Shown: in pieces, positions 6,570 through 34,985 of the stretch
How positions within the stretch are numbered: position 1 is the first letter of the stretch
How the letters are laid out: each line of letters starts with the position of its first letter
Assembly: GCA_023256215.1 (NCBI GenBank)
Contig: JAGDXB010000070.1
Span: 1 to 40,775, forward strand
DNA from: Vulcanisaeta sp.
GTDB lineage: Archaea; Thermoproteota; Thermoprotei; Thermoproteales; Thermocladiaceae
Length of the DNA stretch: 40,775 bases
Reading direction: 5' to 3'
Notes under the pieces: model-generated
What the model was told of the DNA's origin: nothing
The model's input: only the letters and a program-made list of their open reading frames with translations
Database searches by the model: none
Translations under genes and position numbers: made by a program

Positions 6570-7769
6570 TTGATTAAGTGGCGTAATGCAAGGGTTAGGT
6601 GGATTCCTAAGGAAATCAATGCGCTATCGTTAAAGCCGTTTTCTCTTAATTTCATCTATGGACCACGTCAGGTAGGTAAGACAACACTGATAAAGCTTGC
6701 AATAAAGGATTTACTTACTAAGGTTAAACCTGAGGCCATTTTTTATTACAGCTGTGATTTGCTCATTAATCATGAGGAATTACTTGATATCTTAAGGAGG
6801 TATCTTAGGATTAAGGAGGAGCGTGGCATTAAGACAAGCTATATTTTCCTTGATGAGGTGACCTATGTGAGTGATTGGTTTAGGGTTATTAAGTACGGTA
6901 TTGATAGGGGATTGTTTAAGGATGATGTTATAACGATAACAGGCTCAACAAGTATATTTCTAAGAGGCGATATAGAGACGTTTCCGGGTAGAAGAGGATT
7001 TGGTGTTGATATTGTGCTATACCCACTTAGTTTTCAATCATATATCAAGGCTTTAAGGCCTGAGATCGATGTAACACCAGGCTGGTATGAGGAGATCAGG
7101 AGCTTATTTGAGAAGTACTTGGTGACTGGTGGATTTCCATTATCAATCAATTCATACTTCAGCTTAGGTACAGTAACTGCCGATGTCTATAAGTCATACA
7201 TTGACTGGATAATATATGATGTCAAGAGGGTCGGCAGAGATGAGGGGCTAATGAAGGAGATCTTGTCAATACTAATTGAAAAGGTTGGTACTAGAATTAG
7301 TTATAATTCGATAGCGAAGGATCTCGGGATTTCCCATAGAACGGTTTCGGAATACATCGATTTATTAAGTAAGATGTTCTTAATAACTGTGCTTAATTAC
7401 ATTGATGTTAATACGGGTAATAAAGACTATAGGAAACTGGTCAAAATACACTTCACAGACCCATTCCTATATAGAGTAATTTCATTCTGGACAGGAGTTA
7501 AAGTACCTAATGAGTCGATAATCGTTGAGGATATCGTAGCCTCACACCTAGCTAGGATTGGTGAAGTTGGCTATACAACCATTGGTAATAGGGAGGTTGA
7601 CGTACTATCACTTAGTGATTTTACAGGTTATGAGGTTAAGTATGGAAGAAGAAGTGAGCGTGTGAGCATTAAGGCCGGGAAGATGAAGAGGGTCATAACA
7701 ATATTGAGGGACGTAGATGGTATTGATACAGTCCCTGCACACATATTTTTAGCAAGACTCAATATGTAG
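6570..7769 (+). CDS. Archaeal AAA_14/DUF4143-like ATPase; native frame probably begins at ATG 6507 but is interrupted by TAG at 6531-6533
   Basis: P-loop YGPRQVGKTT, Walker B YIFLDEVT, ITGSTS sensor, C-terminal VDVLSLSDFTGYEVKYG (nuclease-like fold signature). Confidence 0.85.
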   Translation: MIKWRNARVRWIPKEINALSLKPFSLNFIYGPRQVGKTTLIKLAIKDLLTKVKPEAIFYYSCDLLINHEELLDILRRYLRIKEERGIKTSYIFLDEVTYVSDWFRVIKYGIDRGLFKDDVITITGSTSIFLRGDIETFPGRRGFGVDIVLYPLSFQSYIKALRPEIDVTPGWYEEIRSLFEKYLVTGGFPLSINSYFSLGTVTADVYKSYIDWIIYDVKRVGRDEGLMKEILSILIEKVGTRISYNSIAKDLGISHRTVSEYIDLLSKMFLITVLNYIDVNTGNKDYRKLVKIHFTDPFLYRVISFWTGVKVPNESIIVEDIVASHLARIGEVGYTTIGNREVDVLSLSDFTGYEVKYGRRSERVSIKAGKMKRVITILRDVDGIDTVPAHIFLARLNM

Positions 7770-31332: not shown

Positions 31333-32928
31333 TCAATTCCATAATGATTTACTTAAGAATTGGGATAAGCTCATAGGTCTCATACCCATTACTAACCACT
31401 TAGGCATATACTTCCTATAACGATAAAACCTACTATCTAAAAGCACGGCAACCTTTCTATGCCTATCCAGGTCCCTTAATAATCTACCAAGAACCTGGAT
31501 TGTCGTTGATATTGCCGGAAATAAAAAGGCAGTTGAGAATCCGCCAATACCCATTCTTTGGAAATAACGAGCTTTTAAGAAGCCCCACTGACTATATTGA
31601 GGTAGTGGAAAACCGACCATCATTATGCCAATCAATTCCTGTTCCAGGAAATTCATACCTTCACCGACAGGGTTTTGCGCATATGTTATTATTAGTGATT
31701 TTGTAGTCCTAGCGCTCTCCTTAAATGCACGTATTGAGTTCAGGGCATCATTACTATCCCTGAGTACGAATGTTGGTACACCCCATACTGGCGGTGAGTA
31801 CATACTGAGGTAGGTATCCATGTACTCGATACTTGGAAAGAAAATCGCAAGACCTCCCACTGGTGGTGCCGATTCTATGAATACCCTGATGCTCTTATCA
31901 ATAATGTTAAGGTAATCCCTCAATAATCTATTACGATGCGTCAGTTCAATATCCCTTATGGACATGATAATAAGGTTCTCCTGATATTCCTTGGGTAATG
32001 AATCTATTGATACGTAATACGAGGACTTAGATAAAGCATCAATAATGTGAGAGAACCTTCTGCTAATGGATGCTGTTAATAGGAGGGACTTGGAAGCCCT
32101 CGTTATTAAGTCACGTATTGGTTTAAATGAGATACACCTTAACCTGGTTAGTTTACCGTCGTAGGTAAAGGCGCATGCATCATTGCCGTAATGCATGAGT
32201 ATTTCAAGAACCTTATCACTAAATGGCTTAGACCCCTTTAATAAATCATCAATATCGAATTTTCTTTCAACAACAACCTCCCGCTGAGGAATATAATTAC
32301 TTATCCTACTAAGTATCTTCCTAGCTATGTCATTCCCGTAAGAAGCCCACAGCCTTAACTCATCAAGCCCAATGTCTATGGAAGTCTCAAGACCTGCGGC
32401 GACATTATGAAACTCATCAATTATAACCAGGGATTTATCCCAACTACTCACCACATCCATTAACTTACTATATAATTCAGGACTCGATAAATAAGCATGC
32501 GTTACTATGACCATTGGCAATTGATACGCTAAGGCTTCATTAACCTCGTATGGACATAAACCAAAATTGAATAAGTCAGTAAAGTCGCAGGTAAGTATTT
32601 GTGATGGAATCTCCACCCTCCTAACCCTACATATACCGCTCATTCTATACAACATGCATTGTTTAGAGTCATGGGCTTTGAATGGACATAACGATTCTCT
32701 ACCAAGAAATACAGCTGTCCTATCTCTAATACCAGCTTGTTTCGTAAACTCACAAAGCTGTAGGGCTTCAGCCCTCGACCTAGTCATGATAAGAACCTTA
32801 CCTCCATCGTCAACCCACCTCTTCGCAACACCTATGGCTATCCTCGACTTACCAAAACCCGGATATGCATTGAGTAGGAGTATCTTCCTATCACTTAACA
32901 ATGAGTATACATAGTCGATTATTTCCAT
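31333..32928 (-). CDS. XPD/DinG-like SF2 helicase with probable Fe-S cysteine cluster
   Basis: AYPGFGKSRIAIGVA, Cys set SLC..QC..IC..CPYE, VIVTHAYL, LVIIDEFHNVA (DEFH box), TTIQVLGRLLRD (QxxGRxxR-like motif VI). Confidence 0.85.
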   Translation of the reverse strand: MEIIDYVYSLLSDRKILLLNAYPGFGKSRIAIGVAKRWVDDGGKVLIMTRSRAEALQLCEFTKQAGIRDRTAVFLGRESLCPFKAHDSKQCMLYRMSGICRVRRVEIPSQILTCDFTDLFNFGLCPYEVNEALAYQLPMVIVTHAYLSSPELYSKLMDVVSSWDKSLVIIDEFHNVAAGLETSIDIGLDELRLWASYGNDIARKILSRISNYIPQREVVVERKFDIDDLLKGSKPFSDKVLEILMHYGNDACAFTYDGKLTRLRCISFKPIRDLITRASKSLLLTASISRRFSHIIDALSKSSYYVSIDSLPKEYQENLIIMSIRDIELTHRNRLLRDYLNIIDKSIRVFIESAPPVGGLAIFFPSIEYMDTYLSMYSPPVWGVPTFVLRDSNDALNSIRAFKESARTTKSLIITYAQNPVGEGMNFLEQELIGIMMVGFPLPQYSQWGFLKARYFQRMGIGGFSTAFLFPAISTTIQVLGRLLRDLDRHRKVAVLLDSRFYRYRKYMPKWLVMGMRPMSLSQFLSKSLWN

Positions 32929-33567: not shown

Positions 33568-34329
33568 ATGATTGATACCCACGCGCACCTCACACGACCT
33601 GGCGTATACGAACATGCGGATGAATTAATAGATGAGGCCCGCAGGGAGGGTTTGTTGGGTATTATCAATGTAACGATGAGTCTCGATGAGGCGCGTAACG
33701 CGCTAAATCTTGTGAGTAAGTATAGAGGTTTCGTATATACGGCCTTAGGTTATGACTATGGTGGTTTTGATATTAGGGAGGTTCAGAGTATTATGAAGAT
33801 TATTAATGACAATAAGGACGTAATTGTCGGTATTGGTGAGGTTGGCCTTGATTATAGTAAGGTTAGGGATCCCATGCTCAGGGAGATTTCACGGCACATA
33901 TTCACCAGGTGGGTATTACTTGCTAAGGAGCTTGATTTGCCGATAATTATTCATTCAAGGGATGCCGAGAATGATGTCATAGAGTTACTTAGGAAATACG
34001 GCCCCGTTAGATGCATCATGCACGCTTTCGGTGGCAATAAGAGCCAGGTAATGAAACTACTGGAGCTTGGGTGCTACTTCTCAATACCGCCAACTATAAC
34101 TAGGTCTAGGCAAAAGAGGGATTTGGCATCATTCGTGCCTCTCAACAGACTTCTTGTCGAGAGCGATACGCCAGAGTTAGGGCCTAACCCCGGTGAGCCA
34201 TCAAAACCCACACACATAAAATTAGTATTGTCTGAATTGAGTAGAGCGCTCAATGTTGATATTCGGGAATTGAGCGATATAATAACTGGGAATACGTATC
34301 AAGCCTTTCCTAAATTATTAAGTAAGTGA
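33568..34329 (+). CDS. tatD: TatD-family hydrolase
   Basis: MIDTHAHLT, VGIGEVGLDY, PIIIHSRDAENDVIELLRKYG, LLVESDTPELGP. Confidence 0.92.
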   Translation: MIDTHAHLTRPGVYEHADELIDEARREGLLGIINVTMSLDEARNALNLVSKYRGFVYTALGYDYGGFDIREVQSIMKIINDNKDVIVGIGEVGLDYSKVRDPMLREISRHIFTRWVLLAKELDLPIIIHSRDAENDVIELLRKYGPVRCIMHAFGGNKSQVMKLLELGCYFSIPPTITRSRQKRDLASFVPLNRLLVESDTPELGPNPGEPSKPTHIKLVLSELSRALNVDIRELSDIITGNTYQAFPKLLSK

Positions 34330-34377
34330 TCAGTCCTGCGTGGATTAATCACCAATCATATCCCCAGTCTTCATCAC
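34330..34377 (-). ncRNA. Candidate C/D-box sRNA: C GTGATGA - 11 nt - D' ATGA - 4 nt - C' TGATTA - 12 nt (ATCCACGCAGGA) - D CTGA
   Basis: Minus-strand GTGATGAAGACTGGGGATATGATTGGTGATTAATCCACGCAGGACTGA has canonical two-guide architecture; TATA-like box just upstream; D box adjacent to the tatD stop codon. Confidence 0.75.
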
Positions 34378-34388
34378 CCAGAGGGAAC

Positions 34389-34403
34389 TTAATAATTTAT
34401 TAA
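34389..34403. promoter_or_regulatory. Near-palindromic TATA-like element TTAATAATTTATTAA, possible bidirectional promoter for the sRNA (-) and the 34434 gene (+)
   Basis: 15-mer that is palindromic except at its centre; appropriate spacing to both starts. Confidence 0.45.
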
Positions 34404-34433: not shown

Positions 34434-34985
34434 ATGAAGATTATCGATAAAATAATTGATGAGTTTAGGAATAGGGGTTTTAAGATAATAATTATTCGTG
34501 ATGATTCAATAAAAGCTCGTTTAAACAGGCTTAAGGTGAAGGTTTGGCTTGTTCCTGACGATTATTTTCCATGGTGGCCCAACCCCCTTGATATGGTTGA
34601 GGAGTTGGAATTAACCGATGTAAATGCGCTTTTTGTTGTTTCTGAGAGACCTTACGTGATTAGTGATTATATTGTTAATAATATATCAAGGGCTCGTTAT
34701 TGGTTTAATAAGGAGTTGAATGTGAGAGTATATTCGGTAAACATTGATAGACTTGAGGAGGATTTGGAGGATGGCATAAATATTGCATTAACAAATCATT
34801 ATAGGGAGATTAGTAATGTTTCGTTGATGGGTATGGCATGCCCTAATTGTGGATCGCCCATGGTCACGGTATACTCATCGAGGTACTTCTCGAGAAGGTG
34901 GGGTTCCTGGGCTAATGAGTATATCGAGGTTTGCGAAAAATGTAATATCATTTCACACAAACTAGTTCTTAACTTAAAGTCATAG
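34434..34985 (+). CDS. Hypothetical protein with C-terminal zinc-ribbon-like motif
   Basis: CPNCGSPMVTVYSS...EYIEVCEKCNII (two CxxC pairs). Confidence 0.65.
   Translation: MKIIDKIIDEFRNRGFKIIIIRDDSIKARLNRLKVKVWLVPDDYFPWWPNPLDMVEELELTDVNALFVVSERPYVISDYIVNNISRARYWFNKELNVRVYSVNIDRLEEDLEDGINIALTNHYREISNVSLMGMACPNCGSPMVTVYSSRYFSRRWGSWANEYIEVCEKCNIISHKLVLNLKS

Follow-up and report, generated by a model that had tools for sequence, protein, structure and literature searches.

The window analysed here, a stretch of 40,775 nt taken at its full length, belongs to a Vulcanisaeta-like MAG (G000), and the nearest named records with its tatD gene are all Vulcanisaeta. This gene encodes a TatD-type DNase, and an XPD/DinG-like helicase gene with DEAD_2 and Helicase_C_2 domains lies near it (31333–32928, minus strand). 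The tatD stop codon ends at 34329. Directly adjoining it on the opposite strand is box D of a candidate small RNA (sRNA), which is intergenic, convergent with tatD and flanked on its other side by a plus-strand gene starting at 34434 for which we found no Pfam match. The preliminary description had placed a 48-nt box C/D sRNA here on the minus strand, and the sequence is exactly as it claimed. Read from 34377 to 34330, the minus strand is GTGATGA AGACTGGGGAT ATGA TTG GTGATTA ATCCACGCAGGA CTGA, with the following features:

33568–34329, plus strand: tatD, TatD-type DNase (Pfam TatD_DNase, E 2e-53), convergent with the sRNA
34330–34377, minus strand: whole box C/D sRNA, 48 nt (sequence, layout scan, kept in 12/12 genomes of the genus)
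34371–34377, minus strand: box C, GTGATGA (sequence; TGATGA invariant in the genus alignment)
34360–34370, minus strand: D′ guide, AGACTGGGGAT, 11 nt (core GAC(C/T)GG kept in most orthologs; orphan)
34356–34359, minus strand: box D′, ATGA, one mismatch to CTGA (most orthologs also have ATGA)
34346–34352, minus strand: box C′, GTGATTA (GTGAAGA in most orthologs)
34334–34345, minus strand: D guide, ATCCACGCAGGA, 12 nt (11 of 12 positions pair with tRNA-Leu GCCUGCGUGGGU)
34330–34333, minus strand: box D, CTGA (sequence, ortholog comparison)
34389–34403, minus strand: A+T-rich TTAATAAATTATTAA, probable TATA-type promoter of the sRNA (common to several orthologs)

Box layout and conservation of the sRNA

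The arrangement is that of an archaeal box C/D sRNA: boxes of the form RUGAUGA and CUGA lie near the ends, C′ and D′ boxes lie inside in the correct order and spacing, and the guides from C to D′ and from C′ to D are 11 and 12 nt long, where about 10–12 nt is expected. In the best parse, box C′ is taken at 7 nt and the D′–C′ spacer is the 3-nt TTG; cutting one base later gives the 4-nt spacer and 6-nt C′ proposed earlier. Just upstream, an A+T-rich stretch (TTAATAAATTATT) recurs in several orthologs and is likely the TATA element from which the sRNA would be transcribed.

We scanned both strands of the window for this layout, requiring exact boxes C and D, at most one mismatch in D′, at most two in C′ and the usual spacings. 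The only match was 34330–34377, and 100 dinucleotide-preserving shuffles of the window gave none (mean 0.0). Orthologs beside tatD were recovered by blastn of relatives; the named loci are Vulcanisaeta. Most orthologs of the genus lie antisense to tatD and directly against its stop codon, and the gap from that stop codon to box D is 0–3 nt in 4/6 named orthologs measured. An alignment across the genus, a check that the preliminary description had suggested for the boxes, shows drift in the spacer and the flanks and retention of boxes C and D, of the D guide and of most of the D′ guide, as expected of an archaeal box C/D sRNA, in which boxes are kept in relatives but flanks are not. From this pattern we conclude that the box arrangement is beyond chance.

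A chance arrangement, or a conserved antisense or UTR element of tatD or its neighbor that is no C/D sRNA at all, would fit the position of the locus against the tatD stop codon, between two protein genes. This alternative is nevertheless very improbable given the empty shuffles, the retention of boxes and guides amid drifting sequence, and the end-to-end alignment (E 6e-6, under the gathering score) with the archaeal C/D family sR5 of Rfam. Moreover, the sRNA is kept in G011, a genome without a close tatD homolog, and lies 437 nt away from tatD at L208. Because these two copies stand apart from tatD, the sRNA is no mere appendage of that gene. A plasmid search returned no match.

To cover greater distances, we scanned 81 genomes of the class with the pattern TGATGA, 18–42 nt, SGCAGG N CTGA. 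It was present in all 12 genomes of the genus. Beyond the genus, three genomes of a different genus within the family (g3) carried it, as did G026 (family f3) and G051, G054 and G069 (families f4 and f13); a reversed control pattern had zero matches in the same scan. The identity proposed by the preliminary description is thus borne out by boxes and a D guide kept throughout the genus and in other lineages. The strict pattern gave nothing convincing in g2, g4 and family f2, though tRNA-Leu there keeps the site described below. One further candidate, CCCCGCAGG in G080, was taken as unrelated because it fails to match the tRNA-Leu of that genome (GCCTGCCCGG).

The D guide and its proposed tRNA-Leu site

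The preliminary description left the target of the D guide to a search of the rRNAs and tRNAs, and this search led to tRNA-Leu. Against GCCUGCGUGGGU, the guide forms nine consecutive Watson–Crick pairs (guide positions 2–10, including the +5 position), and the G000 guide adds a G:U and an A–U pair at positions 11 and 12, for 11 pairs in total. The nine-pair match is present in 5/5 tRNA-Leu genes of the complete genome G010 and in both of those found in G000. The longest run with any other tRNA is six pairs, and the 10-nt guide core makes at most six consecutive pairs over the +5 position in the 16S and 23S rRNAs of the genus and G012. A criterion used previously (PMC4644070) is a run of nine or more consecutive pairs spanning the +5 site; among rRNA and tRNA targets, the D guide reaches it with tRNA-Leu and the D′ guide does not reach it.

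In tRNA-Leu, GCCUGCGUGGGU runs from the 3′ side of the variable-arm stem through U, G and C48 to the fourth nucleotide of the T stem. Because of this span, the N+5 rule picks out the G immediately 5′ of C48, or G47 in linear class II numbering. This is the same G that the preliminary description had singled out. It had done so in the exact complement of the guide, UCCUGCGUGGAU, in place of which the tRNA-Leu sequence is the likely target; a search of five genomes for the exact complement of the 10-nt core (pattern TCCTGCGTGG) found no occurrence in a tRNA gene (ARAGORN) or an rRNA place.

Taken alone, the match is suggestive. When the D guide was shuffled, 27/400 versions (6.75%) reached nine Watson–Crick pairs somewhere in the G010 tRNAs and rRNAs, and roughly one archaeal C/D sRNA in three lacks a significant rRNA target (PMC4644070). 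Both figures would suit a genuine box C/D sRNA whose D guide is aimed elsewhere, at an mRNA or another RNA, with the tRNA-Leu match a coincidence. It is the evolutionary pattern that carries the case for tRNA-Leu and makes such a coincidence improbable, in that conservation falls on the pairing guide positions and variation on the unpaired one.

Among orthologs, the guide core CCACGCAGG hardly changes. Position 1, which lies beside box D and faces an unpaired target G, is A, G or T depending on the genome. Across 19 sRNAs, positions 2–7 are invariant and positions 8–10 little changed; the search pattern fixed positions 2–7, so that their invariance in distant genomes is partly by construction, while within the genus it was already visible in the pattern-free blastn search. 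Position 8, which the pattern left free, is compensated in G069. All four tRNA-Leu found there read GCCUGCGCGGG and the guide reads CCGCGCAGG, a U-to-C change in the tRNA together with an A-to-G change in the guide that keeps the Watson–Crick pair; the Vulcanisaeta guide would mismatch this tRNA-Leu at that letter. The G form of the guide also occurs in G051 and G054, where it makes a G:U pair with a U-bearing tRNA-Leu. The compensatory change is one event only. One Vulcanisaeta ortholog (L195 in G006) has a diverged D guide, CCCTCGCAGGG, that is mismatched to tRNA-Leu at position 8, and in family f5, where the tRNA-Leu site has changed to GCCUGCCCGG, no compensated sRNA was found.

On this comparative evidence, we consider it highly probable that the locus is a box C/D sRNA gene whose D guide directs 2′-O-methylation of G47 in all tRNA-Leu isoacceptors. 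The transcript would bind L7Ae, Nop5 and fibrillarin, and the D guide would pair with a stretch that extends from the 3′ side of the variable arm through C48 into the 5′ T-stem strand, aiming methylation at the G five nucleotides from box D, 5′ of C48. As the site is common to all leucine tRNAs, a single guide would serve the whole isoacceptor family. Since pairing competes with the T stem and the variable-arm stem, the probable substrate is unfolded precursor tRNA. We think it unlikely that the guide, besides marking all leucine tRNAs at the variable-arm/T-stem junction, also helps this class II tRNA to fold in an extreme thermophile, as a chaperone that would keep the T stem and the variable arm of the unfolded tRNA-Leu from closing.

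The D′ guide and a second sRNA

The D′ guide keeps its core GAC(C/T)GG in most of the genus and has no consistent target; its best Watson–Crick run is within the range of shuffled guides. The lineages of G051, G054 and G069 have D′ guides unrelated to that of Vulcanisaeta. Because the D′ guides differ in this way between lineages, the D guide looks like the older, unchanging function, with the D′ guide replaced.

We examined several candidate targets. The G000 D′ guide could form 10 pairs (with G:U) to 23S GTCCCCGGTCA (about nt 1039) and 10 to the T stem of the initiator tRNA-Met of G010; in G010, N+5 would fall on the wobble position C34 of tRNA-Arg(CCG). Pairing at the first two sites holds for the G000 and G010 guides and is broken in most species at position 4, where most orthologs carry A against a C that the rRNA and tRNA-Met sites share. 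For these two sites, for C34 of tRNA-Arg(CCG) and for another site at about nt 2284 of 23S, changes in guide and target are uncoupled, and each was rejected or left open. For tRNA-Arg(CCG), moreover, the guide fits the exon–intron junction best in the genomes that have no such intron. With a Watson–Crick match no better than chance, we regard a functional D′ guide, whether for 23S, initiator tRNA-Met or C34 of tRNA-Arg(CCG), as doubtful; such a function would add to the tRNA-Leu reading, not replace it. We treat the D′ guide as an orphan, and the two-guide proposal of the preliminary description is supported in form only, with no established target for D′.

Similarity searching also turned up a second box C/D sRNA in the same genome (GTGATGATGCGGTTGGGTAATGATTGGTGATTGGAATCGCATGGTCTGA; L121:591–638, minus strand, about 7396–7443 of G000:C30), which has the centre ATGATTGGTGATT in common with the tRNA-Leu sRNA. 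Both of its guides fit 16S rRNA, D′ at about nt 20–31 and D at about nt 48–59, approximately 28 nt apart. It served as a check on the method and gave the result expected of an rRNA-targeting double guide.

In G026, the tRNA-Leu sRNA occurs as two identical copies with identical flanks (L183 and L200), which may reflect either an artefact of assembly or a true duplication. These copies also carry CACGCAG between box C and box C′, so that each half may reach the same stretch of tRNA-Leu. Separately, tRNA genes of G010 (L170, L171, L173 and L175) are apparently interrupted twice, by an intron in the anticodon arm and by another in the T arm, and the T-arm insertion CGGTCGCGGGTTAACCGCGGGGAA is similar in several tRNAs.

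Comparison with known systems

At gathering thresholds, Rfam assigned no family anywhere in the window. The nearest entry, RF01304 (sR5), aligns with the sRNA end to end, mostly through the boxes, at 31.1 bits (E 6e-6); this is below the gathering score of 40 bits needed for membership, and the guides differ.

Archaeal tRNA-targeting sRNAs typically combine one tRNA guide with one orphan guide (PMC7994747), and an orphan D′ guide agrees with that pattern. As summarized in this review, the Pyrobaculum tRNA-targeting families (Lui et al. 2018) share with the Vulcanisaeta sRNA the C/D layout, the length and the division into one guide for a region common to several tRNAs and another with no target. 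Relative to the families as the review presents them, the proposed Vulcanisaeta target is distinguished as the tRNA-Leu variable-arm/T-stem junction, and the strict Vulcanisaeta pattern was not found in the family f2 genomes.

The closest precedent by target is in Pyrococcus furiosus, for which a C/D guide to G47 of tRNA-Leu(UAA) was predicted (snoRNAdb, cited in PMC7668247); methylation at this residue was undetected by mass spectrometry (PMC7668247). As cited there, the prediction concerns apparently the same tRNA-Leu residue as in Vulcanisaeta, a comparison made by residue. The prediction as cited names one isoacceptor, tRNA-Leu(UAA), whereas the Vulcanisaeta site is present in all leucine isoacceptors.

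The RNA type itself is ordinary in hyperthermophilic archaea, and C/D-guided methylation of archaeal tRNA is established (PMC7668247). What our comparison would add is a target, the conservation of that target and one compensatory change between guide and target across families. It gives a guide that had no target a concrete prediction open to testing: each Vulcanisaeta tRNA-Leu should carry Gm immediately 5′ of C48. The retention of the D guide in several lineages, beside D′ guides that have been replaced, should also be useful for tracing how guides for tRNA ribose methylation evolve.
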